From the NCBI GenBank assembly GCA_021904315.1, contig CM038907.1:17181223-17245222 (forward strand): a DNA stretch of 64,000 bases, in the 5' to 3' direction. Origin of the DNA: Sphagnum magellanicum (Eukaryota > Streptophyta > Sphagnopsida > Sphagnales > Sphagnaceae). The notes under the pieces were generated by a model. It was given only the letters and a program-made list of their open reading frames with translations, had not been told where the DNA came from and did not search any database. Positions 2,782 to 59,090 of this stretch are shown one piece after another. Numbering within the stretch: the stretch's first letter is position 1; the number at the start of each line of letters is the position of its first letter. The position numbers were made by a program, and so were the translations under genes.

Positions 2782-3465
2782 TTAGGAGCGAGAGAAAGCG
2801 GGATTCTCCCAAGAGCGTTCGGGAGGATCGTAATCGCAAACCATGCCGAGCATCTGCCGTCGCTTGGCAAGCAAGTACGTGACGACTACCACTTGAAGCA
2901 AAGCGGCGAAAGCGGCAAGAATGATCCCGGCTTTCTCCTCGGAATTGAAGCGCGGGGAGGCCGAGACGGGTGCTGCTGCTCCTGATGTAGGGTTGTTATG
3001 GGTCGTCGGCGCGTGATTTGGAGCAGGCGATGGTGAAGGATTCCCACTGGGTGCCGATGCAGGGGATTTATGGCCATCGCCAGTTGAGGAAGAAGAAGAG
3101 CTATTCTGCGGAGGAGGAGACGAAGGAATCTGCCCAGCGGCAGCGTTGGGTGTTTGTGTCTTGATGAAAGCTACCACAGTGTACCTAGGGCTTGCAGGAG
3201 TATCAGCAGGAACTTCTGCCTCCACTGCCACAGAAAGGAACGCGAGAGTACAGAGCAAAGAATGAAGCCAAAAGAGAAGAATCACGAGCTGTATTGAGTA
3301 GGAACTCCTCCGGCTCCACCTGCCTCGTTGCTGCTGATGCGAAGAACAACAGCATTCTTGCAAAAACCCAAGATCTCTCTCAGCTTCTCCTCCTATTCCC
3401 ATGTCACGCGGTCTCGTTAAACCTTGTACAGTACCACTCAGGCTTTGCCGCCGCCGATCAGCCAT
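2782..3465 (-). CDS. Ser/Pro-rich membrane protein of unknown function, 227 aa
   Basis: Single-exon frame from the ATG at 3465, chosen because its context (GAGAAATGGCT) is ideal for plants and no in-frame ATG lies upstream, although the frame stays open to 3663. An Arg/Gln/Ser-rich N-terminus is followed by a hydrophobic segment (about residues 56-82) that could be a signal anchor or late signal peptide. A Ser/Pro/Asn-rich linker (88-173) with arabinogalactan-like SPSPAP motifs comes next, then a second hydrophobic span (179-200), a basic LAKRRQ stop-transfer sequence and a short cytosolic tail. A simple reading is an extracellular hydroxyproline-rich stalk held at the membrane. I do not recognise the family. 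A GC-richer leader extends to about 4320, with an AT-rich repeat just beyond it. Confidence 0.7.
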   Translation of the reverse strand: MADRRRQSLSGTVQGLTRPRDMGIGGEAERDLGFLQECCCSSHQQQRGRWSRRSSYSIQLVILLFWLHSLLCTLAFLSVAVEAEVPADTPASPRYTVVAFIKTQTPNAAAGQIPSSPPPQNSSSSSSTGDGHKSPASAPSGNPSPSPAPNHAPTTHNNPTSGAAAPVSASPRFNSEEKAGIILAAFAALLQVVVVTYLLAKRRQMLGMVCDYDPPERSWENPAFSRS

Positions 3466-4330: not shown

Positions 4331-4424
4331 AAAATAAAATAAAATAATTAAAAAAGTAATTGATTTTGGATTTTTTTTTCAATTGCCAGAAGAAGTGAGG
4401 GGGTGGTGCCAAAAAAAAAAAAAA

Positions 4425-4760
4425 AGGATTAAAATTTGCCAGATTTCTATACTTCATTTTCAATTTGTAGCCAAAATATGAATAAAAAGGATTTGCTAGA
4501 AAAATTTGTACCTTCATTATCTGCATTTATTTATAGCCAGATTTGGTTTTAAATCTTTCTATTATTTAATGATTAGCCACTTTTCTTTTCTTTTTTCCAA
4601 CATCTTTCCTATGGAGATGATAGCCAATTTGGCTAAACAAACCCAAAAAAAAAAAAAAAAAAAATTCTGTACTGATGATTAGCCACTTTTTTTATTATTT
4701 AAACATCTTTCCTATGGATGATAGCCAATTTGGCTAAACTGACCCCACAAATACAAATTC
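4425..4760 (-). repeat. Gene-proximal AT-rich repeat, copy A plus partial second copy
   Basis: Read on the minus strand it starts with TGGGGTCA (about 4745-4752), then GTTTAGCCAAATTGGCTATC and ATCCATAGGAAAGATG. The GCCAAATTGG/TCCATAGG block occurs twice (ending near 4648 and 4745). Further in are TTTGGCTA-type motifs. It shares these blocks with the repeats at 21308, 40580 and 50383 and lies just upstream of the leader of the gene at 2782-3465. No coding capacity. Confidence 0.6.
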
Positions 4761-5439: not shown

Positions 5440-8400
5440 AGATGTTCCATATGCTTTAACCAAAGCTTAATTTTGTGTGTGTGTGTGTGTACATATATAC
5501 GCTATAAAGGTGGACCTATGTGGTTTTATTATGGGGAGTGCCCAATATTTTTATTTTTTAAAAATTGTGATGGGCCAATTAAAGTGCGTTTTTCAATAAA
5601 TAAATAATTGGGTGTATCCCCTAACTAATTAATAGAAGCAACAAATAGACATCCTTTGGTTTTAATAACCAAGAAATATCTCATAGTGGCAAAAGTGTGA
5701 AAGGGTAGTCCTCTTGAATTTTTTTCTACCCTAATGGATGATCAAACCCATCATTCATGTGAAGGAAGGGCGATTCCCTTAACAATTCTCACCTTTGCAA
5801 GGAGGGCTAATTGTGTGATGGTAGCTAAAACCATGTATCAAATGTGGTACCTACTTACCTACCTACATTGTAACCACTTACATTCACTACCTACATGCTT
5901 ATGATACTTACCCACTTACATAGGTAGTTACCTAGGTAAGGGAAGGGGAAAGTAGAATGGTTTACATTATAAATTGCCAAGATTATAACTCTACTATGGT
6001 TCATTCACAACTAATCCATAACATGTTTTCAATGGATGGTGTATTAGTGGGTGGTAGGTCACAAAATGTAGGAAGTTGGAAGTTGGTGAAAGCTTGATAA
6101 GTTGTTTTTGAAATCCTCCAATGAAAAATGAAACAATAAGAACATCTCCAATGCAAACCTATCAACCCAAAGGTGTAAAACGAGTTTACAAGTTGAAGGT
6201 GAGATGAAGGTATTGTAAGATTGATGTGTTTCATTGTGATGTTTACTAAATAGCTTTCATTCACACATTTGTCATCTTAAAACGTAACATTTTCAAATAT
6301 AAACAAGAACATGTGTGTTGTTTACAAACCAAAAGTGCACCCAAGAGCTTTGAATTGTATGAGTGCATCTCTAATTCAACTTTTCCAAAATTTGGAGCTA
6401 TCCTAGCTACAACTTTAGAAGATGCTAGTATTGCTTACACCCAAGCACACACTAAAAACAACACAAGCCCTCTGTGCTTGGATGCATCTTTCGAAAGTGC
6501 CATAGTTATTTGCACCAAAATGTAGTAAAAAACAAAAGAAAACATTTTTTTCTAAATAAAAAAGGAAAGTGAACAAAAGAATAAACAAAAAAACACAAGA
6601 AAATGAGACAAAAAAAAGGGAAGAAAATAAACTTCAAGGAAGATGATGCAAAAGAAGATTAAAATAATAATAACAAGTTGATGAATAATAAAAAACTAAA
6701 CAACAAAAGAAGGGGAGGGAGGGAAAAAATAGAAGGGAACAAAATGATGAAGAATTAAAAAAATTAAAAAAAATCTAATGGGAGTAGACCTTTCCACAGT
6801 CGTACACCCATTAAACTACATACCTCTTTTCAACAAAGTTTTATAACATGTTCAACTTCATTATTTAAAAAGTCAAAAGATTGGAAGGAATCATGTACCA
6901 ATAAAATGGAACAAATGTGAGGATGCAATAGATGGATTTTGCTAGTTTTTTTTAAAAAAATTTGATGTTACCTTTGTGGCAATTGACCATAAGATGATTT
7001 AGCCGAATTTGATTATAAACAAAAATGTGGAAACTAAAACAAATTTAAGCATATTTTTATGTTATTGGCTTGCTATTGGAACTTGGTGTAAAACTTGGTG
7101 ATATTGCTTTTCCAAATTTGGGAATCAAAAGCTCCATAAAAAAACTTTTTTGTATTTTTTGAAAAGCAAATATGATACCAAAATTGTACCCCAAAAAACA
7201 ATATCAAATTTCACATCCTTCTATGGCCAAAACCTCAAGGGAAGTTGGTGGAAGTTGGTGTGAACTGATCAATTTCATTGTGTTTTTCCAAGGAGTTTGA
7301 TTAATTTAGATTTTTGAACTTATTAATAGCACACATAACATGACAGATTTCTAGATGGTTTAAAATATTCAAATATTAAACAATGATGATAAATCAATTA
7401 TCATTGCACATTGAAAATGTGGAGGCGATGTTTTTGGGGTGTGAAATCTCTTATTATGAAGCTACATCTTGAAAAAAAAAAATTGATATTTCACTAGTTT
7501 TGCAATTCATATTGCATTTGGCAATTCCTTCATAGAGTTATAAGCACCAAAACTATGGCAATTAACACACAAAAGACCTAAAGCAAAAAAAAAAACAATC
7601 AAAAGGTAAAAGCTACAAAATTAAAACAAGATGTGATGGGATCTAATCACAAAAATGTTTATAAAATTATGGCATTACGTTTTTTCAAATATCCATTATG
7701 ATTGATAATTGAATGGCAATCAATGAATTTGCTTATATCAACAAAAGTGAATACAAAATGAAAATGTTGATTTATTTTGGAAGAAGATTTAAAGATTTAT
7801 GGATTGACTTCGTGAATCACAAGTCTTGCAAGTTCATTTCAAACATCACTATAGTTAAAGTGCATGTCATTCTTTATCACCTTGTGTTATTGTGTCAAAT
7901 CCTTGCATTGATAAATCATGGCAATTCATTGAAGTCAAATGGAGTTGTGAGTTTGTTGCATTGTTGTGTTTTCAAGGAAAGGAAACACAATGGTGGGTCT
8001 AAAAGTAAATTGGACTTTTGAAATTTTATACATGGGCTCATAATTTAAATTTGAGGGTGAACACAAATTCAAACAAGAAGGAGAGACTAGAAGTTTGACA
8101 AATAACAAAGGGAATATTAAAAAAATCGAACACAACCTAGATCAATTTTCAAAATGTGGGTACCCAAAAGAAAAGTTAATTCCCAAGATTTCACCATAAT
8201 GATAATTACGATACTTTTGAATAGTCACCCAACTCTCAATGAATTGTTGGTGACAATAAAATATTGAATTTAAAAGGGGTAATGGCATTAAATTGTTAAG
8301 TGTAAATGAAAAGTTATTGAAACAAGCTCTATAAAACGAAACTACATGATCAAATCAAATAAGTATCAGTGGAAATATTACTAGTTTGTTTATCAAAAGA

Positions 8401-10734
8401 TGATTCTAAATGGGACTCACTTGAAAAGAAGTTTCACTATGAGTTTGTCCATCTTGATGTAAGGTTTTAAGTATTTTCAAAGATAAAAATGAAGTTTTGA
8501 GAACTTTTCATTCATGGTCCCAAAATAATATGTTATAATAATTTAAAATGTTTACTGGAAACATGTTGGAAATTAAATGGATGAACAAATTCATGTTGCA
8601 TGTGCCTACGGCCTAAGAAAGGTTCAAACCTACGAAGGTGAATTCTAAATTAAATCCTTATTAAAATGTAGGTAATTTACTCAAAGTATAGTGCCACACA
8701 CAACACACATACCACAAAGTATAAAAACTTACATCCTTGTGGATTAGGATCACCCATGCTCTTAAAGTTTGATCTTTATGTGAGTCACAAAGGGGAGCTC
8801 ATCAAATATGCTTAAAGAATTCACCAAACTATACATAAGTTTCCTTGTGTGGATGTTTTGAATTCTTACACATTGATGATAATTGTGATAAATCATCAAG
8901 TAGTAAAACTAAAATAAAGTTGAACAGATTAATAATATGTGAAAAGATTGTTTAAGCATTGTTCAATTACACACTAAACAATGTTTGTCATCATAAACAT
9001 TTCATCAATCACAATTAAATTTTCATGTTTTAATGTCTCTAATGTTGAGCTTGGTTTTATGATTGTAATTATAAAAAAAATTACAAGTAGTTAAAACATT
9101 GAATGTGCATTGTAAATGCATGTAGTGATAATTGTAAAGTAACAACTCTTGTTGTGGCTATGAAAAATACCTTCACAAAAAAATGTATTTCCACTTCAAG
9201 GGTGAACCTTGAAGTATGTGGAGTCATTTGTTCTTCATTAATTGTTGATGTTTCAAATATATCATTGAAAGTATGATATGGAAAATCAACAAGAAAATGT
9301 TGATTTCCAAAATTGAGCATGATAAACTTTAATGGATATGAAACTTGGTTACATTTTGGATCTAAACATGGATGCAATTCTAACATCTTATTGAATTTAT
9401 TTTTTTTCCATTTTCAAATAAAGCTTGTGTTGCATATTGATGAAGAAATATGCGTAAAGATTCTAGATTTGGCCTTAAACCCTAAACCCTAAACCTCAAA
9501 TTTAACATTCATATACATAAAATTAATGTATGTTATGTTTTAAAGTAAATTCCTTTCATTGCAAAAATGTAACATATTGCAGAAAAAACCTCCATTATTG
9601 TGAACTAAATGAAAATCATTATATATGACTTCCTTGTAAATTACTCAATATATATGATAAATTAAAATGACTTTATGGTAACATTAAATGTAGTTTCAAT
9701 ATGATGTAACACGTTCAATATCCAAAGGACTTGAAAAAATTAACATTATAATAATTTCTTTTACAAATCATCCCTTCTTCATTATTTCATGTCAATAGTG
9801 TTCAAACAATGGAGCCCAAACATTAAGTAATTAATGAATAATGTATCATTTTGCAAAGTGGAGGACCATTAACATTTTTGGTTCAAATTGGCATTTTATG
9901 AAAAGGTTCATTTGAAAGCATAAAAACAATGTGATTGAATTAAAGATATAAGCATTACAAACTATTGAATTGAACTTATAATACATTTAATAGTTTTCAT
10001 GATTGTGAAATTGCAACACATACCATGGAAGCTCCAATAAAATATTTGCAAATTATAGAAATTCATCATTAAGACAAAAAAATTTGGAAACCAAGAGTAA
10101 CATTTCCTATTAATATTGAGTCAAGGTATTGATTTCAAGATTAATTGTTCTTGTTTATTCCTTAATGAGCTTGTGTAAGTTTTCCTTAATGCAACAAAAT
10201 TAAGTTTGTTGATTCAGATTGATGTAAATTTAAGGTGAGAATTTGGGGAAATTAACAAATAACATGAAATGTTGATCAATGTAATTGTCCTACTTATAGA
10301 AAAGCCAAAATGTGCATTCACATTAGCACTTCTAAACAAAAGTGAAATTTTGTTATATATGTATGCATAGAAAGTGAAGTTATGCACATGAACCACAACC
10401 TTTCATATGAAGCAAATAATGAATGTTGTGAATTGGAAGTAATTTTCCAAACAAAAATTTGTTGAAGACATGTTATTGATTTGAACCATCCATTAACAAT
10501 GGTTTCAACGGAAAGTAGTTACATGTAAAAATTATCCTATGTACCAAATCTATTCAAAAGTGATGAACATTGCCTTAATTAGTTATATAGTTAATTAAAA
10601 TCAGTCATAATTATTAATTTTTTTAACTAAACAGTTGGAACTTAGCACACACCAATGATTGATAGGTATTTAATTAGTTATATACTTACTTTGGAAACAC
10701 CTTGGACACACATGAAACCTTTTGATCTTCTTCA
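5440..10734. other. AT-rich stretch without a supported gene
   Basis: No ORF in either strand resembles a known family. I see a (GT)n run at about 5472-5490, A-rich low-complexity DNA at 6530-6780, and a short telomere-like run at 9476-9495. The largest frames (7713-8021 on +, 9081-9386 on -) have AT-driven composition and are probably chance or worn-out transposon sequence. Confidence 0.6.
9476..9495. repeat. Short interstitial telomere-like repeat
   Basis: TAAACCCTAAACCCTAAACC is just under three plant-type CCCTAAA units. At this length it may be a telo-box or chance rather than a telomere fossil. Confidence 0.5.
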
Positions 10735-21060: not shown

Positions 21061-21307
21061 TGATGAGTCACCCTAGGAAAATGACAGATTTGTCAATACA
21101 TAACTCAGATTATAAACAGAAAACAGTGTCTTCTTGGATGATAATTTCTCAAAGGATGTACTTATGCGACCCCAGCATCCACCAAGTACTTACACCATCC
21201 CTTGGAAACCCATTTATGGATGTGGACTCAGTTTTGGATGAACTAGAAAGGAGTTGCTAACATTCCATTGTGGTAACCCCTCCTAGTACCAGCCCCCCCT
21301 TTTTTTT

Positions 21308-21560
21308 CACTGGGCTATATATATTAGCCAAAAAGCGAAATTTAAAAAGTAGAAAGTGTAAAGTCAAGTGCTTTTTTTGAGATTTTCAATAGCCATAATC
21401 CACCAAATTTTAAGAAAAAACCTCATATTTCTCTACAGGGTAGCCAAAAATATAAAAGGATGCTTAATAATTTTATATTCATATTTAGTTTGTAGGCAAC
21501 TTTGGCTAAATCTTCATATGGATAATTGCCACTTTGAAAAAATCACAAAATTGGAAAAAA
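21308..21560 (-). repeat. Gene-proximal AT-rich repeat, copy C
   Basis: Read on the minus strand it runs CCAATTTTGTG, TTATCCATATGAAGATTTAG, CCAAAGTTGCCTACAAACTA, CATCCTTTTATATTTTTGGC, ATTATGGCTATTGAAAATCT and TTTTTGGCTA, ending near TAGCC and an AAAAAAAAGGGGGG tract. It aligns nearly end to end with the copy at 50383-50628. It lies about 250 bp beyond the GC-rich leader of the bZIP gene. Confidence 0.8.
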
Positions 21561-21569
21561 AAAAAAAAA

Positions 21570-25977: not shown

Positions 25978-26454
25978 TTAGAGCAAATATGCAAAATATT
26001 TTAAGAAGCACTCATCATCAAAAACATAAACCTCATGTGTCAACCGCATTTTTGGATTTGTGAAGACATGTTTGTCATAACAAGATGATCCAGGTAACCT
26101 AATCATCAAATGTAGAATCTTTCTTTTATGATCATAAATGATCATATCTAAAAATGCATAATTCAATTTTTTGGTGTAGTAGTTTTCACCTTGTCTTTTG
26201 GGCGTAAAGATTAATGGAATTAGGGTTCCATCAATTAATGCCATTACCAAAAGGAAGCTAAAAATCTTATGAAATTTTGATTTGAACAATTGATGTTTTA
26301 ACGTTGAAGGCCATTTGACAACACCAACATAAAGGGAGGGAATTGCAACAATTGATGAATTAGTGAACAATTGCACAAAGCTTTTAGAAATATCAAACAC
26401 ATCACAAACATCCCTAATGGATGTTGCATTTCCACATTTCCCAAATCTAAACAT
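25978..26454 (-). pseudogene. PIF/Harbinger (DDE_Tnp_4) transposase remnant
   Basis: The 158-codon frame carries hallmarks of the family in order: GNATSIRDVCDVFDISKSFV (the helix-turn region), ALIDGTLIPL with the first catalytic Asp, ENYYTKKLNYAF, HLMIRLPGSS, and FDDECFLKYFAYLL with the second Asp. The frame stops before the third acidic residue. Family members are usually 350-450 residues, so the N-terminal and C-terminal parts are missing or decayed. Not functional as it stands. Confidence 0.85.
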
Positions 26455-26999
26455 TACAACTTTAGGTTGGAATCATATTGGTGTTTGTTGAACAATAAAT
26501 AAATATGTGAAATTGGATGAAATTCAACCAAAGCTAGAATGCAATAAAATGTAACACATGACATCTTCATTTTTTTGTTGAAAATGGAATTTATTCAAGT
26601 ATATATTGAATGCACATGTTCAAATAATCATAACTCTTGGGCATTTTTTTACAAGGTTGCAAATAACGTGTAACATTTATGCATATGCAAATTGAAGACA
26701 TGTCCATCATTCCATCTTTAGAATTGTGAGACATGTATGATTTTCCATTGCTAGAATTATCCCTTTGAATTTCAATATTTAGATTAAGATCTTTGCTTAC
26801 ATTATCACAATAAATTTGGATAATATTACACACAATTTGAGCAACTAAATATTGACCTTTAATTCTTTGAACATTTCTACTTTCACATTTTATGACATGT
26901 TGTATTTGACGAGACAAATAAAAAATGATGTATGAAAGAAAAATGTTAAAATAATGAAAAAATAAGGAGTTGAAATACAAAGAACCAAACCTAAAAGGT

Positions 27000-31260: not shown

Positions 31261-31389
31261 CAAATTAATATATTAGAATATTAACCCATCTGTACTAGTA
31301 CCAAAGAGAATGGTGTACCAACCACATGTGAACAAAGCAAAGCCCAGTTCAGCCTTACCTCTGGTGGACCCGGGAATCCCTCGGGTACC

Positions 31390-31921
31390 CCGGATGATGC
31401 CCAACCCGGGAAGCCCCGATCCAGGTCCCAAAATCCGGACGACTTAGTCTTAATACCCGTATTCTCATCCAAATGGACAGAAAATGGTTCGTTCCCCGGA
31501 GTCAGGAAAAAAAATGGATGTATATTGTATGGATGATCGGGGATCTGAGAGTTCAATTGGACAGGTATAGGTGATGACACGATCCGAAATGGATGAGGAA
31601 TTCGTGGATGGATGATAAAAGGTACACCCGATTATGCCCAACCGGGGAATAGCCGATCCAGGTCCTAAAATTCAGACGACTTAGTCTTAATACCGTATTA
31701 TCATCCAAATGGACAGACAACGGAGGATGGTTTGCGTTCATCTATGCGGAAGTTCTCAGATAGTGAACTTAGAAGTGGTCGGTCCGTCCCTCGGGTGAAG
31801 AAACCCTAATATTGGATGAATATTCTTTGGATGATCTGGGATGTGATGGTCCAAATGGACAGGTATAGGTGATGAAGCGCTCAGAAATGGATGAGTAATG
31901 AGTAGATGGATGATAAACGGT
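31390..31921. repeat. Duplicated A-B unit upstream of the FIP2-like gene
   Basis: Unit 1 (31390-31622) and unit 2 (31627-31921) share ATGCCCAACC(C)GGGGAA, GACGACTTAGTCTTAATACC, CATCCAAATGGACAG and ACAGGTATAGGTGATGA, plus a GATGGATGATAAA end. The offset grows from 237 to 298 bp, so unit 2 carries about 60 extra bases in the middle. A CAAATGGACAG-like box occurs four times. The repeat ends just before the leader of the gene at 32748. Confidence 0.85.
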
Positions 31922-39700: not shown

Positions 39701-40579
39701 CAGGTTCACATTAGTTATAACTAATCTCAAGTTTCAACAAAAGCCAAAAAATATCATCTTTTAAAAATCCTCATATAAAAATAGACCTATTATTACCTGA
39801 GGGCCAAAATCCCTTAAGCTACTATACTCTATATAATGAATCTAAACACTATATCCTTTGCCTTGCTAGGCAAGGCCAAAAAAGAAGGAAAAAGAAAGAA
39901 AAGTACCCAGGATTGAAGGTTCTCTCAAGAGAAGAGAACTTGCCAACACTTCAAACATGACACTTCAAACTGATTATAGATGAATGTAATTTTTTCACAT
40001 CCCCCATTATCCTAAATGAATATGAACTGAATTCAACACAAACCCATTTTCTGAATAAATCAGAATCTGGTTTCATCACAACTCACCAAGTGTTGTGAAA
40101 ATTTTCCTTTTTTTTTTCCCTTTTTCCAATTTTGTGAAAAATTTGAAAAATTACAAACAAATTCTCAATTTTTTTTTGTCGAATTTTGAAAAAAAAATTT
40201 GTCGAAATTTTTTTGTGGTAAAAATTGGACTGATTTTTTGCTGAATTTTTATTGAATTTCGCCAAAATTTGGATATATATACAAGAGAAAAAAAATTTAA
40301 AAAGAAAAACTGCACCAACTTGTTTTGTTTTTTGTGGTCCACAGAAGAACATTTAATGAAAGCTGGGACAGGCAGGGACATATGACATAATAACTCGCCA
40401 TAATAAGTACCACTGCCAAACCCCCAATAGCACGTAGTTGCATTGACCTCCACTCATGCAAAAGCGCGCATACAGTGCCGCAGTAGTAATAACTAATAAT
40501 AAGGTATGGACAAGTACCTTAAGAACTAGGGCGGTGAGAGAGCGAGCGAGAGAGAGAGAGACCGAGTTCGCAGTGCTTT

Positions 40580-40865
40580 TTTTCAATTTTGGGAGTCAAA
40601 ATTTTTTTGTGGCGATCATCCATCCATAGGAAAGAAAAGATTTAGCGAAATCTGGCTACAAGCTAAATAATAAAAGTGAGAATTTTCAAAAATACATTTC
40701 TTCTGTAAATCTTTCTCTAACTTATATCGAAATTTGGAGATTTTTTTATTACATTCTGGTCAAATTTTATGGCTTATTGAAAACCTTAAAAAGCACTTGA
40801 TTTAAGCACTTTTTAAAAAATTTGAGTTTCGATTTTTGGCTATATGAATTATTGGCAGAAAATAG
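40580..40865 (+). repeat. Gene-proximal AT-rich repeat, copy D
   Basis: Contains TTCAATTTTG, ATCCATCCATAGGAAAG, GATTTAGCGAAATCTGGCTA, CAAGCTAAAT, TGGCTTATTGAAAACCTT, AAGCACTTGATTTAAGCAC and TTTTTGGCTAT in the same order as copies at 21308 and 50383. It sits about 500 bp before the ATG of the 41365 gene and just before its GC-rich leader. Confidence 0.7.
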
Positions 40866-40902
40866 GCTGATATTACTTTCTGAAAATCACCCGATTTCAT
40901 TC

Positions 40903-41364: not shown

Positions 41365-42663
41365 ATGGAGCTCTTGTGGCCGTTTCTGATTTGTATTTTC
41401 ATGGTGACGTCTTTTGTGGTGGTCGGGATTGCAATTCTGTGTCGATATGAAGGAGGGAAGGTGTCTGGTCCCAGGTTGGAGCAGCTGGAGGATCCCAGTA
41501 TTGTCGGAATTCTGCCTATCGGTTACCTTTGCAGAGAAGAGCTATGGATGTCCTGCGGAGGTGCCGTGAGACCGGAGCTTTTGCTCGTATTCCGAGCTTT
41601 GGCGGTCGCGTATCTGCTGCCGCAGTTACTGTACAATATCGTCAAAGACGGGGTTTCCGGTTATTTTTTCTACACGCAATGGACGTTCACGCTCTTGATA
41701 TTGTATTTCTCCCTGGCCTTGCGAGTGAGTGTTGATCACTTCGTGAACGAAAAATTCAATCGCTCGCTTCCGGCGAGAATCGAGTCTCCTGATTTTGGAG
41801 ACGAGCAGGTGATGCTGGACGAGGATGACGAAGTCGAAGGAGCTGGAGTCAGAAGCATTCTGCAAAACGGCAAGGATCGTGCAACAGAGCAGGGAAATGG
41901 CCAATTGCCGTTTGCTTTAGGGAGAGGAGAGAAGCTAGAAGACGCAGGTATTTGCAGCTTCCCCTCACATAAAACACCGTTCTAGGATCACCGTGTCAAA
42001 TCCACGGAATTTGCTCCTTGAAGCCATGTACCTGATTCTCTCCTATTCCAAAGCTTCGACCAAGCTCCAGCAAACGTGTTGTCACCAAAAGACAAAAGAT
42101 CTTTATGCATGAGGTGTTCGCTAAACCGATCTGCTACTCCTCGTCTGCGTTTTGTGGTTTCTTGAGAGCTTGACGATCTGAATTGGATGTGGTTTTTGTA
42201 TATCACAGGAATCGCAGGCTATGTCACGCAAGCCGTTTTCCAAGCGGTTTTGCCTGCTGTGCTGCTCACAGATATGGTATACTGGTGTCTCCTAGTGCCG
42301 TTCGTGCTGCCGAAGACTACTCGCCATACGTTCATTGATGTGAATATGCATGCTGTGAATGCTCTTCTTCTCCTTACCGAGTTTGCCTTGAACAGTCTCC
42401 GATTTCCTTGGTTCCGCATCGGCTACATCATTCTCTGGAGCGCTTCCTACACCTACTTCCAGTGGACACTCTTCACCACCGGGCTCAGCCATAAGTGGCC
42501 GTATCCGTTCATGGATGTCGAGACTCCCTGGGCTCCAGCTTGGTACCTTTTCATCATCGTTTTCCATGGGATCTGCTTTGCCTTGTGCCTTCTTCTTGCA
42601 CTTGGAAAACAGAGTATATGGTCACGATTCAATTTTCCTACCACACAGAGGATGAGTTTCTGA
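41365..42663 (+). CDS. Seven-span Rolling stone-like membrane protein, 345 aa
   Basis: Two exons: 41365-41947 and 42209-42663. The 261-bp intron (GACGCAG|GTATTT ... TATCACAG) is phase 1 and rejoins as a Gly codon. Hydrophobic spans lie at about 4-26, 71-93, 101-124, 199-229, 236-256, 264-286 and 305-327. An acidic loop (about 137-194) sits between spans 3 and 4. Conserved landmarks of this plant family include YTQWTFTLLILYFSLAL, LNSLRFPWFRIGYIILW and KWPYPFMD. It resembles the Arabidopsis At1g10660/At3g27770/At5g62960 group of uncharacterised transmembrane proteins, distantly related to animal Rolling stone. Biochemical function unknown; an endomembrane or plasma-membrane location is expected. 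Convergent with the LPA1-like gene. Confidence 0.9.
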
Positions 42664-50132: not shown

Positions 50133-50382
50133 TCCTTGTCCTCCTCTTCGTCTTCTTCCTCTTCCTCCTCCTCCTCCTCCTGAGCACGTAAATCTTTGGC
50201 TGTCTCCAGATGCACTCACTCCTGCACTGTGGATCAAAGCTCCTAACAAACGGATCCACAAGAAACACGCTATCAAAAATCCCCACCCAAGAAACAGAAA
50301 ACTGGGCATGTGATGCGAAAATGGGGGTTGTACTGCGGCCCAGTTTTTATTTTATTTTGTTATTTTATTTTATTTTATTGTG

Positions 50383-50628
50383 TGGGGTCAATTTTGTGCT
50401 GTAGGCAAAGTGATGATTATCCATAGGAAGATTTGGCCAAATTTGATTACGAGCTAAATTTTTAAATAAATAAATAATATTAAACATCCTTCTATATTTT
50501 TGGCTACCTACCTGCTTGAACCAAGTATTGAATTTTTCTTAAATTTTGGTCTAATTATGGCTATTGAAAATCTTTTAGTTTTTAATTCCACTTTTTTGGC
50601 TAGCTAGCTACATGTAGCCATTGACCCA
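50383..50628 (+). repeat. Gene-proximal AT-rich repeat, copy E (best preserved)
   Basis: Begins TGGGGTCAATTTTGTG and ends CATTGACCC, giving possible 9-bp terminal inverted repeats (TGGGGTCAA/TTGACCC). Internal order: ATTATCCATAGGAAGATTTG, GCCAAATTTG, GAGCTAAATT, CATCCTTCTATATTTTTGGC, TTTTTCTTAAATTTTGGTC, ATTATGGCTATTGAAAATCT, TTTTTTGGCTAGC, TGTAGCC. No coding capacity. It starts 251 bp upstream of the LPA1-like ATG (74 bp from the alternative ATG). Confidence 0.8.
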
Positions 50629-50639
50629 AAAAAAGGGGG

Positions 50640-51720
50640 TTGAAACTTGTGCCTGTGCAAAAAGTGGGTGGGTGTGTAAAAAATACCAATTGCACCATTT
50701 TTTTTTATTCACCCCTTTTGCCTTAAAGAATATTAGCACATGGAAGATTTCATTATTCCAATAAATGTGTTCTAGAATCACTATTTAAATTTTTATTTTT
50801 TTAAAAAAAATTCTATAGAAGGGCTCATAAGTTTTTTGTAAACTAACCAGGCTACAAAATATTATTAGTACATTATCATTTTGACAGTAATTAAATTATT
50901 TTCAATATATGTCAATTAACAATAAATTATTTTTCACAATATCAGCTGCTCCAAATGTTGAAAAAGCTTCATGGTGTCATGATGATGTGCCTAATAAGCA
51001 ATTTCAGGATAATTTTATTTAAAAATTTTCCAAAGTGAAAAAAAAAAAAAAAAAAAAAAAAATCATCCAAAAGATGTGGGAATGGTGTTTCAAAAAATGG
51101 AATGCTTGCCAGACCCCCTTTTTTGGGCTTTTTTTTTTTTTTTCCCCTCACTAGGTATCATAGAAAAAGAATAAATTTTAAAAAAAAATTGGAGCATGTC
51201 CTTTTTTACCCTAGGTAAACCATAGGCCACTCCTACCCTAACACGTAATATCATAGTCTTAGGTCAATTTTCACATGGGCAAAATGATTAATTATTTTTT
51301 TCAAGAAAAGAAAATAATTCTTAGAAATATGAATTTATTTATTTTTAATGATTTTTAATTGATTTTTTTTCTTGTTTATGAGCATTGTCTTGCAACAACA
51401 TCAAGACCGGTGTCACATTTAACTCATTGCTCATATATATTGTTATATACATATGTCATATAAGGAGTGAAATTATTCAGATTGTAGCTTGCGATAAGTA
51501 CATACTATGATTTTGGACACCTTCGCTTCATATTTTCACCAAATTTTTTTTTCATTATTTTAAAGATTATTTGATGACAAAATTGACCCTACAGTTAATA
51601 GTATTTGGCAGGCTCAAATGGGGAAGGTTTCTTTTTTACCATTCAATTGTATAATTTATTATGCTAGAAGGGAATCCTGAGTATAAAAGTATATAAATTA
51701 TAGCCCTCCAAGAGAATGAA
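50640..51720. other. AT-rich intergenic DNA
   Basis: Poly-A and poly-T runs (for example 51039-51062 and 51129-51143) and no supported gene. Confidence 0.55.
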
Positions 51721-52489: not shown

Positions 52490-52600
52490 TGTCTCTAGAA
52501 TATATAGTGGGGTTCCCAAAAAAACCTACGAATTGTAGCCAAGTTTGGCTAAGTCCTCATGTGGATTATCTTTGGTTCACCTACCTCACAAAATTATTTA
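52490..52600 (-). repeat. Gene-proximal AT-rich repeat, partial copy F
   Basis: The minus strand reads ATAATCCACATGAGGACTTA then GCCAAACTTGGCTACAA, matching the left third of the copies at 21308 and 50383. It lies just downstream of the orphan frame at 51865-52371. Confidence 0.55.
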
Positions 52601-52609
52601 TTAAAAAAA

Positions 52610-54443
52610 TTAACCATGCATCAGAGTTATTCAATATTGAATAATTTTGTAAAGAAAATTCAACAAAATCAAAACTAAAAGTTTAGGAAATTTTTGATTT
52701 GCTCATGGTATTGTTGAAAAGTCTTTGAGGAATGGGATTTCTTGCATTTGATTTTGTAATTTTGAATGTACGATGAAGCATATATTGAATCCTTTACAAG
52801 GAAGGGGAAATTAGTAGGGTAACAAATTCACATTTGGCCATTATGGATCACCTATGTCTGTGGAAGTTGGAGTTTTCATGTTAACTAATTCACTTCCACC
52901 TAGCACAATAATGCTCTTGGTTCAAAAACTAAAATAAGTTAACAATGTCGTTCATAGTTCTTCTTTTCCCATGCAAGGGACTTTGTGGGGAAACAAATAG
53001 GTTGAAGGATCAAATTTATGTAATTTGTTACATAGTCATGAAGATCATTTTTTTTCATGAAAAATTATTTAAATATTCAATTCCTATGCATGTATAATAT
53101 GCCATAGTCATCATTCCTATAATAAATTTTATGTCTTTATAAAACTATGCATAAAACATCCAACATTTTTTCACCATTCTTTTTATTTTCAACATTAAGT
53201 TTATTGTATAATTTTTTTAATATTATGCATCAAGCTTCATTCTAATAAAGTAAAAATGTTTTGAATTAGCCCCAAACCTTTATTTATATATTAAGCAATA
53301 GAAAATTAATTAATTTTTTTCTTGAAACCTTACAACATAAATGATTCATTGCTAGGAAAATTAAACAATTTTTTTTTCTAAGTCTTACACCTTGTGTGAC
53401 TCATTGTGTGACTCAACAAATTTAAGTCATGCACATTAAATTATGTGATGATTTTTTAATCGTTCATCCAATTGTGTTCAGGCATGTTAAATTGTGCCAT
53501 GACTTTTCTGATTATTCATTCAACTTTCATCACGTACATTAATTTGTATGCCATGATTTATTGATGATGATTCACTATAATCCTAATAAGTATACATAAA
53601 CCACAAATGAACATTATTCATTTATAACACCTTACTGCCTAACCCAATAAATTACATAACCCACTTAATAATTACATTGGATGTTACCCATCAAATTATA
53701 TCTCATTAAGTTACAACTCCATTGCCCCCTTAGTAGCTTGTTCTAATTGGCTATTCCTATAATGGAGAGCCCACATAAAAATGTAGTTTTCATTTTGATG
53801 GGCTAGTAAGGAATGTTTTCAGATGTATTGTGAACTATGGATTTTTTTTTCAAAAAATTAATAAAATATCTCCAATTTAAACTATTTATGGAAATGGCCT
53901 ACGATAATCGACAAATTTGTTTGTTCCACATGAGGTCACATTGCTTCTTAAACAGTTATGAATGAAATGTTGAATTTCACCCTTGGTTATCCCAAGTTCC
54001 AGTTTCATTTTTTTCATCTTCATTTTTACCCTTCTTTTTGAAAAAATAAAATCACAATGCAACAAAAGAAAGTTGATTGAGCTTCCACATTATATATTCA
54101 AAAGACTAAACCCATGGAATACCATATATGCCATTGATAATCAATGCATTTTTGGTCAAAGTAAATAATTATTCAAAGAATTGGGTTTTAACAATTTTCA
54201 TTTTTAAAGCACATGTATGGGACACAACTTTATAATTCAATTATTGGGCAACAAACTTTCAAAGTTTTAGAAAAGGAATCCATGTTTTCAAAATTGACTT
54301 GAAATTTCAAATGGAAAAAGGACTTCCAAAACAACCAACCTTGAATATTTAAGTTTATTATCTTTTTTTTTTATTCCCTTTATAGGCTAGGCATTTTAGA
54401 AATTTGATATTATTTACCCATCACTAAAGGATTAAGTTTTTCT
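52610..54443. other. AT-rich intergenic DNA
   Basis: No gene seen. About three diverged units of roughly 65-70 bp with CACATTAAATT...TGATGATT motifs lie at 53420-53575. Confidence 0.5.
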
Positions 54444-54459
54444 TTTCAATTTTGTGATA

Positions 54460-55502
54460 CAAAAAGTTCAAGGTGTTGACATCGTCTTATTAACCGAAAC
54501 TTGGCACTTCCTAGGCCAACATTTGCCACATGTTGAAAGGTTTGATTCACTTGTGATAGCACGCACTATGCAGATGGGAAAAACAAAAGCGATAAAACAT
54601 AACGAAGGGGTTATTGTTTACTTCTGTAGCCACCTTAGCCCAAACCTATCACAATGGAAGGAAGGAAGCCACGATTCTTATCTATGGCTATGGGTCAACA
54701 GGGGTGTTGCCCCTGACTTGTTTGTCTACGTGGTGTATGCTGCCCTTGTTGCCTCCAAACATGAGAACAAATCCTTGTTCCAAAACCTGGTAGTAAATAT
54801 TGCTAAAGTTCAAACTTTAGGGGGCATAGTACTATTAGGAGGGGATTTTAATGCGCGTACTACAACGCTACCATATACCATTGACACTAGTGACCTTTGT
54901 GAATTGTTACAGGCACCTGAGCTCGCTGAGACTCAGCAACCAAACACTATGGCTAAGCAACAGAACCGTGATGCCAATGTTGGCAACTGGGGCCGCAAGC
55001 TCCTCGACCTATGTTGTGACGCTAAGTTACTCATCCTCAATGGCCGAACACCTAGTAATGAATCAAGGGAATTCACATGTTTGGCAAATGGGGGGGCAAC
55101 ATTGTCAATTATATTATTGGCTCACCTATAGTTTGGCAAGTTGTTACACACCTCAAAGTGATAATAGATGACACCCGTTACCGCACGATGGGGGAAGACT
55201 CTGACCATAGGCTATTACGCCTATGGTTAAACATTGGTTATAACTTTGTTGAACCACAACATATGGTGGTAACAAAAAAATTATTGCCTAGGTTCAACTA
55301 TGATAAATCAAAAGTTGCAGAGTACCAGCTTGCCCTAATAGCAAGTTTTGGAAACCTGTGGGTTGCTGACTTGATTGAGCATATGGGGGCAAACGGGTTA
55401 GCTAACCTACTACAACAGTACGTGGGTGCTATAATAAAATCTACTTTTGGTAGCAAGCCTTCGGGAAGGAGATGTAGAAAGAGGCACTGTCATAAACCCT
55501 AG
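54460..55502 (+). pseudogene. LINE endonuclease (EEP-type) domain, truncated and frameshifted
   Basis: Readable motifs are LLTETW, GGDFNAR and, after a frame change, DSDHRLL, in the order expected for an apurinic-like LINE endonuclease. The N-terminal first motif (the NxRG type) is missing. The frame changes at a seven-G run (55090-55096), consistent with a one-base indel. An in-frame stop at 55500 ends this part. Confidence 0.8.
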
Positions 55503-55718
55503 TTTAACGTTGACCACCGTACAACGAAACGTGAGTTGAGGCTTTGGCTAAAAATCAACCCCGATTCATACGCCACTAAACATCAAGAAAATAAACTCAA
55601 AAATTTATTAAAATGGAAAAGATTTTTTTGGGAAATTATAAGAGCTCAACATATGTGTGTGCTTGCTAAGGTGGATGCACTTTTGTTTTGGAAAAAATAG
55701 CGACCAAAGGCACTCGTT

Positions 55719-57263
55719 GTGAATAAGATCAATGCGACTATGCTTTTGGAAAACTTCTACGAGCTAGTTGGCCAGTCTCTGCCACCCATACGGCTTCAAA
55801 CTGATCATTCAGCTCAAGTGGTTGAACCTCCACCTAACCACACCCTGAACATAGATATCACACTTGCTGAGCTACTTCATGCATTGAAAAAGCTACAAAG
55901 GAACAAGGCTGTTAGTTTGGATGGTATGAAAACTAAGTTCATTTTGGATGAGGGAGAGTTGCTACACATGCCACTATTGATAGCGTTCAATTGCTTTCTG
56001 GCAGAAGGCATTCCAAAAGCCCTTTCCACTGGGGTGGTCCACACGCTCTTGAAAGGGGGTGATGCCTCCAAATTTGACAACTACAAAGGGATAACGATTG
56101 GACCTTTCCTAACAAAGTTGTTTGCTATGATCCTTGATAAAAAGCTGAGTGAGTGGGCTGAACAACATGGGCTGAGTGCCAAAGGTCAAGCTGGGTTTCA
56201 CAAAGATTACCGCATTACTAACCAACTTTTCATATTGCGAACTCTGATAGAACAAAGCAAGGCAAAAAAAAAGCCACTCTATTGTTATTTTATGGACTTC
56301 AAAAAGGCGTTCGATATTATGTTGCGTGAAGTGTTGTGGCAGGTGTTGGCTGGCCTTGGGGTGGAGGGACGTTTCTTACGATGCTTGCAAGTGATTTATG
56401 CCAAGGATATTGTACGCATTAACCACCTAAGCGAAGGTGTCACCTCCAGCTTTAGATGCCAGCAAGGTGTGAAACAAGGTTGTCCTCTCAACCCCCTATT
56501 CTTTGGGCTATATTTGGATGCCTTAAAGGGGTGTTTAAATGGCAAAAAATGTAATGCACTAGCCTTAACATATGTGCACATATGGTTGTTGTTTTTTGCA
56601 AATGACCTTGCTTTAACGTCGGAGTCAGAGGTGGGACTGTAGTAACAATTAAACGCATTCCAGTAGTTTTGTGCTGAACGTGAACTTATAGTGAACGTGA
56701 AAAAAACAAAAGTCATGATGTTCAATTCTGCTAACCCGTGCCAAGAGTTTGTGTTTGAAGGTGACATTATTGAGCGTGTGCAAATTTTCAAATACTTGGG
56801 GATCCTGCTCGAGACCACCTCGAACCTGGATAGTGCAATGGAACATCTAGTAATTGCCAGTAGGCACTTGCTATTCACACTGAACCGCCGTTGTGTGGAG
56901 CTACGTATTATGGACGTTAAGCTACGGTGTGACCTCTTCAACACATTGGTGCATTCCATAACAAGCTACGCCTGTGAGGTTTGGGTGGACTCTAAAAAAA
57001 TAAAGGTTATTGAAGTAGTGTACCAAGGGTTCCTCAAATCCCTATTCAGGGTGCGAAAAACAACCGGCACATCCATTGTGTTAGCAGAATTTGGCAAATT
57101 TCCCTTTGAACACTATGCATGGGGACAAGCATTGTTGTACTATAATTATGTGAGCATGGTCACTAAAGACCGCATCTTGGGAAAGGCATGGGAAGCCCAA
57201 CTCGCTATGCTTGCTGCGAAAAAGAAATGTTGGGCTAGATCCGTGAAAAAATGGCTACTCTAG
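55719..57263 (+). pseudogene. LINE reverse transcriptase, inactivated
   Basis: Finger and palm motifs appear in order: KLQRNKAVSLDGM, NYKGITIG, GFHKDYRITNQL, FMDFKKAFD (56293-56319), GVKQGCPLNPLFFGLYLDAL. The catalytic box at about 56594 reads FANDL, so the first Asp of the usual xADD pair is Asn. Stops at 56640-56675 separate the palm from the thumb-like part (56691-57263: VKKTKVM, FKYLGILLE). Enzymatically dead by these changes. Confidence 0.9.
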
Positions 57264-57688
57264 AATTAGCCCCAAGAAGTGGCAAGTTTTCTACTTATGG
57301 TTCAATCACTTCTGGAAACGGCGTTTCAGCTTGCAACAACATGTGTGTTCTAGGCGAGGATTGTTTAACTATCGTTGGGAACAGTTCTTGGGACAATGCA
57401 CATACATTCGACCCGTCTAGCAAAGGTAAGAGGTTGGGTAGAGAACAAAGTATTTTGTTGCAACGCACACAACATACAAGTGGAAACTCAAATGGCTAAA
57501 CCGGCCACACTACATCTATTATAGTCAATTAGTGGTAGATCTACGATGGAAGGCCCGATCAACTAGGAGGTTGGTGTCCCACCCCTCTAGGTTTTCCCCA
57601 CATAATGTTGAGTGTAAAAAGGGTGAAGGATAATATGTGACTAACTTTCATTGAAAAGTTATTTACCAACCGTGAAATTGGGATCAAC

Positions 57689-58069
57689 GTGCAGACAAGA
57701 TATTTGCCCTTCAAGGGTATGTCGTACGAGAGCAAAAGCTACTTATGTAACATCAACTATGTTCAACTGCGGAAAGCTCTGACTCGATTTTGGTGTGACA
57801 ACACACAGCTTGAGGTAATGCTAGGTGCGTGGAAGGGTGTGCCATACATAGAGACGCTTTATCAAGGCTGCGACTTGGGGAAGGTAGAAGATGAAAAACA
57901 CTTGTTCCTTGTCTGTCCAAATACACAGAAAGTTAGGGAACGCTTTTGTTCAACCTTGCCCCTCACCCACATGAGCACTTTTGCTAAACTCATGCAGACT
58001 ACGAACATGGTCACCTTGGCCAAATTTGTGGCATGCTGTCAGTTCCAGAGGATAATCTGTCCTCCATGA
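57689..58069 (+). pseudogene. LINE C-terminal zinc-binding-like segment
   Basis: In a different frame from the RT part, the sequence shows CDLGKVEDEKHLFLVCPNTQ. This resembles the zf-RVT-like end of plant LINE proteins (Cys ... EDE-H-LF-CP). Another shifted fragment lies at 57251-57499. Confidence 0.65.
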
Positions 58070-58239
58070 TTTACCTTTTGTCTAATGGACTCTCTGGTCC
58101 TAAACGGATGTAAAATAGTAAATAGTAAATAGTAAACATTGAAATAATTGATTATTGAAAGTTTGCCAATTTTCATTGAAATAATTGAAAGAAATGGGGT
58201 TTAAACTCCAAAGGTTTTTATTTCAATTTTGTGATATAA

Positions 58240-59090
58240 CCTCGTTGGCAATCAAGCACAAGATGAATTAACCAAGTTTGGTTACAAGTTTGAAATGAAA
58301 GCATAAAACTTATGCATCCTATTATATTAGCCAATTTTCAAGAATTTATGTCCACTAAATGGAATTGTAGAATGTGAATTTGTCCGTTTTGGGAAACTTC
58401 CTACTTGGAATGTTATTGATATGAACTTGTTATTCGAGGGATATATATTTCAATTATTAAGTTTTTATTGTAACATTTTTTTTTTGGCAAAAGTTTGCAA
58501 TGTGTTGAAAAGGGAAAAAAGGGGGGTGCAAAAGCTACAAAGGTCTTTTTTGGGGAGAAAAAGAAATCTCAATTAAAAATTTATTATCAATGTATAGCCT
58601 TTGCATTTGGGAATAGCCATAAGAACCTACCCAATTTCTTTTAGTTCATCCAAAGGACGTTTTACAAAGTGTAAAAAATCAATGGTTTTCAACAAGTACT
58701 TGCTAAATATTATGGAGAAATTAAAAAAATTCAAAACAAAGACAATTTTTTACACTCATGGACCAAGGGTTTATGATTAGATGGAAACTTTAGTTTGTAT
58801 CTTGATTTTATGCAAGAATACATAGCTAGGATTGAAACTAGCCCATATGGTTTAAAACTTTTTAAAAATACAAATGATATTTTATTCATGCTTTGAAAAT
58901 AACAAAAAGGAATTTACAGCTAGGAATTTTTATGTGTTATTTTGCAAGGTCAAAAAAGTGGCAATAAATGTTTTGTAAAAACACCAAATTTTGTTGGAAT
59001 TGCATTGAAAAAAAGTTGTCACCACAATGTGAAAATTCGTTCAAAACTTTAAAAACATAATTAAAAAGTTCCCCCAAGATTTTAATCCCT
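58240..59090. other. AT-rich intergenic DNA
   Basis: No gene or domain seen between the two retroelement remnants. Confidence 0.55.

Follow-up and report, generated by a model that had tools for sequence, protein, structure and literature searches.

Among plant MITEs of the hAT superfamily, nDart1, nDaiZ and dTok of rice are entered as such in a published table (PMC12595863). A survey of 207 plant genomes, four bryophytes among them, records MITEs of the hAT and Mutator types in almost every species; it gives group means of 44-120 MITEs per Mb and, for three angiosperm families and with few exceptions, a preference of MITEs for promoter and downstream regions (PMC12550479). In the genome of Sphagnum divinum, 7.8% is given as unclassified repeat in the genome paper (PMC9946827).

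Here, we analyse a repeat found in a 64-kb stretch of peat-moss DNA (contig C1, positions 17181223-17245222, referred to as the window), where an earlier note had described an AT-rich family upstream of genes. These repeats very probably belong to a single hAT-type MITE family of the peat-moss genome, an old, non-autonomous DNA transposon about 280 bp long that is present in many copies. The copies are dispersed, have common ends and, in a minority of cases, are flanked by 8-bp duplications.

Copies of the repeat in the window

By BLAST, the best pair in the window is formed by copies D and E (75.6% identity over 213 nt, E=3e-31); copies C and D align at 70% over 208 nt (E=9e-13). Copies C and E, which had been thought to align almost end to end, share a BLAST alignment of only 47 nt and are united by a family model. 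This model has 253 positions and was built from 22 aligned copies, namely 20 genome loci together with D and E, copies C and A having been left out. Using nhmmer, it recovered copy C at 40583-40846 (E=5.9e-29) and part of copy A at 4582-4376 on the minus strand (E=1.6e-7). In total, the window holds seven copies or fragments at E<=1e-3, of which four sit 5' of a gene or frame (E values from nhmmer):

Copy A, 4376..4757, minus strand: rearranged MITE with an internal duplication (match 4582-4376, model built without A)
6963..7135, plus strand: partial copy in the AT-rich stretch after 6 kb (E=1.3e-14, model without this copy)
Copy D, 21301..21564, minus strand: nearly complete MITE, upstream of the bZIP gene on the same strand (E=2.6e-52, model member)
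Copy C, 40571..40869, plus strand: full-length but diverged MITE
Copy E, 50341..50642, plus strand: MITE (E=6.5e-50, model member; model match 50386-50619)
52533..52595, minus strand: fragment, the partial fifth copy noted earlier near 52490-52600 (E=9.1e-8)
58223..58328, plus strand: partial copy just after a LINE-like element (E=2.5e-10)

The orientations originally given for A, C, D and E are correct. The statement that the large deserts hold no copies is wrong, because the copies at 6963-7135 and 58223-58328 had been overlooked and neither is upstream of a recognised gene.

Copy A lies 5' of a minus-strand frame with its first ATG at 3465, and its duplication (4569-4757) consists of a stretch with TTTAGCCAAATTGGCTATCATC that is repeated locally, 84% alike over 88 nt. 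Copy C, with the 5' end CAGTGCTTTTTTT, lies upstream of a plus-strand gene with its start codon at 41365, at a distance of about 500 bp. The outer ends of copy E (CAGTTTTTATT... to ...AAAAAAAGGGGGTTG) are degenerate and were positioned by eye.

The consensus has 30% GC, a composition in which chance similarity of AT-rich DNA might be suspected. With an earlier model made from C, D and E, the best E value was 0.23 in 20 local dinucleotide shuffles of the 64 kb and 5.8 in the reversed window. Together with the counts of reversed patterns given below, these controls exclude chance similarity, an explanation to which we allow virtually no probability. The alignment of C, D and E thus survives scoring against both shuffled and reversed sequence, and the AT-rich family proposed in the earlier note is real.

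Structure and ends of the element

Extension of the model by its flanks gives a consensus unit of about 279 nt, with the overall form CAGTG(T)nGGTCAATTTTGTG ... GGCTATATATAGCCAGCC(A)nGGCTG. On the 5' side CAGTG is followed by a T-run and GGTCAATTTTGTGATGTAGCC, and on the 3' side TTTTTGGCTATATATAGCCAGCC is followed by an A-run and GGCTG. Terminal inverted repeats are present, but they are imperfect and short, CAGTG(T)nGG being matched by CAGCC(T)nGG when the 3' end is read as its reverse complement. The possible 9-bp terminal inverted repeats of the earlier note are therefore better stated as imperfect ends, CAGTG(T)n and CAGCC(T)n. At the 5' end CAGTG is the commonest form, with CAATG, TAGTG and GAGTG as variants, and the 3' end is CAGCC. 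The ends of hAT elements are of the type C/T-A-G/A-N-G, and those of the family described here fit this type.

The element is non-coding and too short to encode a transposase. Its AT-rich body includes a TATATA-containing palindrome, and the pentamer GGCTA or its complement TAGCC occurs seven times in the 279-nt consensus, compared with a mean of 0.55 in shuffles, none of 2000 of which reaches seven. This word was selected post hoc; when the most frequent word with two or more G/C is taken from each shuffle instead, a count of seven or more is found in 7 of 1000. When folded as DNA the consensus is somewhat more stable than its shuffles (-32.4 versus -24.9, s.d. 4.1).

Target-site duplications

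Target-site duplications of 8 bp, along with short imperfect terminal repeats, are features of the hAT superfamily. Duplications were sought, as had been proposed earlier, in copies that the model covers almost up to both ends; in a second batch (L050-L069), coverage almost up to the 3' end was required. Ends were placed at the best match to CAGTGTTTT and to AAAAGGCTG, with at most three mismatches each, and the octamers just outside them were compared. L024, L028, L053 and L060 were dropped before the count as duplicates of other loci; eight more entries, including L027, were left out as having one side without a recognisable end.

In this fixed-end test, which covers the 8-bp length only, the octamers are alike at 7-8 of 8 positions in 5 of the 31 copies with recognisable ends. 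They are identical in L010 (GCCCCTAC), L057 (ACTACAAG) and L066 (GAACCCAC), and match at 7 of 8 positions in L009 and L068. None of 930 mismatched pairs reaches 7, and none of 20,000 permutations reaches five copies. The remaining 26 copies match at fewer than 7 of 8 positions, in keeping with their age. The three window copies included in the 31 score 1, 3 and 3 of 8; copies D (1/8) and E (3/8) have no recognisable duplication, and the octamers flanking copy C match at 3/8 only. L027, outside the rule-based count, has TTTTACAT/CTTTACAT by eye. A free search for octamers in the flanks, with ends unfixed, gave no clear separation, since 8/8 matches were found in 4 of 35 copies, one of them of low complexity, versus 33 of 1190 control pairs.

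Because the 8-bp duplications lie outside CAGTG...GGCTG, the element is assigned to the hAT-type MITEs. It is the minority of copies with duplications on which this assignment rests, and which points to hAT. A SINE with a terminal A-run, or a MITE of another superfamily (e.g., Mutator, whose duplications are 9-11 bp long), might also be considered, given the T-run on the 5' side and the A-run on the 3' side. In addition, the 12-nt stretch TAGCCAAAGTGG is A-box-like and may fit the A-box consensus. However, the duplicated octamers are found exactly outside CAGTG and GGCTG, past the A-run, and the SINE reading was rejected for this reason; in a SINE, the A-run would be the terminus, and duplications of varying length would be expected. 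Taken together, a SINE or a non-hAT superfamily is very improbable.

Copy number, age and arrays

The genome searched comprises 438,994,042 bases on 31 contigs. In the whole genome, the family is dispersed on many contigs. With copy E as query, at least 46 places on many contigs were found (40 scored of 1698 first-look candidates), and among the matches listed the other copies are at most 79% identical to E. The diagnostic 18-mer AGATTTAGCCAAATTTGG, with up to two mismatches allowed, occurs at 8,560 sites (tandem copies being counted more than once) versus 15 for the reversed word, and further patterns gave 51 versus 0 and 352 versus 0. The word detects 18 of the 20 seed copies; among the other copies in the seed loci the figure is 15 of 24, and among the window copies 3 of 7. 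Because it misses part of the known copies, the size of the family is estimated at 1-2 x 10^4 copies. The genome-wide count and the ends, together with the 8-bp target-site duplications that a minority of the copies carry, bear out the MITE interpretation first offered for the window.

A separate match of TTTTGGCTATATATAGCCAGC to a viral contig concerned one contig with 22 bp in common and no match to the MITE model, and was dismissed as chance.

K2P distances to the consensus range from 0.072 to 0.372 with a median of 0.136 (29 copies of at least 200 nt); the seeds were picked for likeness, and the true median is therefore probably higher. In the window the values are 0.107 for copy E (over 180 nt), 0.141 for copy D and 0.224 for copy C (over 270 nt). 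Among the fetched loci, the only near-identical copies are evident segmental duplicates (the peroxidase group, and L059/L060), so that these loci give no sign of recent activity.

Some copies are joined in pairs, which are tail-to-tail in L019, L021 and L023, head-to-head in L026, and tandem in L018, L024 and L028. The pairs in L019 (4183-4672) and L023 (4385-4864) are fused tail-to-tail with their 5' ends outermost. In L023 the octamer GGAACGGG is seen by eye just outside both sides, a few bases off the ends, which would fit movement of the dimer as a unit. In L070 (1-1801) an internal segment of the MITE is matched seven times, and L071 (1-1101) consists of three tandem units, two of them truncated; in these arrays the MITE is turning satellite-like.

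Position relative to genes

The following genes and mobile elements were recognised in the window:

19.1-19.9 kb, minus strand: bZIP gene (Pfam)
32.7-33.7 kb, plus strand: BTB/pentapeptide gene (Pfam)
41.4-42.7 kb, plus strand: gene with a FAR-17a/AIG1-like match at 42.2-42.7 kb (Pfam, weak, below cut-off)
54436-58069, plus strand: LINE-like element whose frames, those named below and further ones, are distributed over several reading frames

In a scan that left out the frame at 49.95-50.35 kb, no Pfam match was obtained for two frames on the minus strand, at 2.8-3.7 kb and 44.8-45.2 kb. The LINE-like element has an endonuclease-like frame below the Pfam cut-off (54.4-55.1 kb) ahead of a reverse transcriptase (PF00078, 55.7-56.6 kb, E=8e-11). 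A trace of a Harbinger-type transposase (DDE_Tnp_4) is found at 25978-26472 on the minus strand, also below the Pfam cut-off. Just before the BTB/pentapeptide gene, at 31384-31921, there are direct repeats of 74 and 114 nt that are 82-86% alike and unmatched by the MITE model.

The five genes considered are our reading of the five in the earlier note; the bZIP and BTB genes have Pfam support, and the gene at 41.4 kb has it weakly. Of the seven window copies, four are at most 1.5 kb upstream of a start codon of these five genes, for which a post hoc binomial test gives P=0.005, or 0.009 when about 10 kb of exons are left out. The other three are not upstream of recognised genes.

Outside the window, 20 loci of 9 kb were fetched, 18 of them independent (L018, L024 and L028 represent one peroxidase duplication), and 60 frames were scanned against Pfam. 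These loci were annotated unblinded and solely on the basis of long frames; gene finding by codon usage, trained on 4,047 codons, had low power. The positions of the copies were as follows:

L014: main copy about 0.3 kb 5' of a kinase, and 3.4 kb 3' of a second kinase
L015: main copy 2.3 kb 5' of AP2
L018/L024/L028, peroxidase group: main copy about 0.5 kb before the exon with the HDC motif
L020: main copy 2.0 kb 5' of F-box/kelch
L023: main copy 0.5 kb 5' of F-box/kelch
L010: main copy seemingly intronic within an aspartyl protease, whose profile match stops at position 52 of 161 before the copy
L016: main copy in an intron or 3' of chitinase
L017: main copy abuts a BolA exon, perhaps intronic or 3'
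L009: main copy about 3.5 kb 3' of SURF1
L025: main copy about 3.5 kb 3' of DnaJ; further fragment (6293-6438) 1.8 kb 3' of DnaJ
L028: further fragment (7812-7911) 0.6 kb 3' of the last recognised exon of the peroxidase
L024: further fragment (2384-2461) between two peroxidase exons, i.e. in an intron
L011: beside a copia element
L013, L019, L026 and L027: these look 5' too, by eye and without Pfam support
L012, L021 and L022: no recognisable gene in the fetched 9-kb loci

Five main copies flank a Pfam-named gene from outside at a distance of up to 2.5 kb, and all five are 5' of it. This result and the window count could indicate that the MITE inserts preferentially just upstream of genes and is kept there as promoter or boundary sequence, by virtue of its TATATA palindrome or its AT-rich body. 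Against this reading, the main copies of L010, L016 and perhaps L017 look intronic or 3', that of L009 is 3' of SURF1, further fragments lie 3' of genes (L025, L028) or in an intron (L024), and three of the seven window copies are not upstream of recognised genes. We regard it as unlikely. A more far-reaching proposal, that a hAT-type MITE of at least 10^4 copies has seeded many Sphagnum 5' flanks with GGCTA motifs and a TATATA module serving as a shared promoter or boundary element, seems more doubtful still. As to the promoter preference that the earlier note had suggested, the 5' bias is suggestive at best, because the loci are few, were annotated unblinded and had been picked for their resemblance to copy E.

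Spread of the family and possible source of transposase

On the hAT-type MITE interpretation, the element would have been bound at its ends, and perhaps at its repeated GGCTA/TAGCC motifs, by a hAT transposase supplied from another place in the genome. This enzyme would have cut and pasted the element, an 8-bp staggered cut leaving the target-site duplications. Afterwards, copies would have decayed, duplicated internally, or formed tandem and inverted pairs. Such a source is plausible, since there are at least 146 matches to the hAT transposase domain PF05699 in the genome, many of them with stops (150 scored of 671 candidates). In 20 of these hAT loci, taken with 1.5 kb on either side, no autonomous partner with the ends of the MITE was found; one of them (L031) has a weak internal MITE fragment (E=1.8e-5), and the other 19 have none.

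That copies lie close to genes probably reflects insertion into open DNA flanking genes, or better survival there, rather than a regulatory function. Plant MITEs are commonly found near genes, and a promoter or matrix-attachment function is therefore not needed to account for the family; none of the results speaks for a role as promoter boundary or matrix attachment. The upstream pattern is best read as a transposon distribution. Should the 5' bias hold throughout the genome, the family would be a case in which the carriage of promoter sequence by transposons could be tested in mosses.

Comparison with known MITE families

No description of the repeat family was found in the literature searched, nor of the word GGCTATATATAGCC, repeat databases being outside the scope of this search. 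As far as this search goes it is a new MITE family, which the catalogue from 207 genomes may include (PMC12550479). With the group means of that survey as a yardstick, the diagnostic word of this family alone occurs about 19 times per Mb (8,560 sites over 439 Mb). The accessible text on the unclassified repeats of Sphagnum divinum names no MITE family and mentions no upstream bias (PMC9946827).

The family may be among the commonest MITE families of a peat-moss genome, now with its ends and target-site duplications defined, and the diagnostic word and consensus can be used for annotation and for studies of insertion polymorphism. It resembles the rice hAT MITEs nDart1, nDaiZ and dTok in being short and non-coding, with an 8-bp target-site duplication and short imperfect terminal repeats, which are features of hAT elements. 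The likeness is one of features, and the peat-moss family differs from these rice elements in being old and diverged, with no sign of recent movement in the copies seen.
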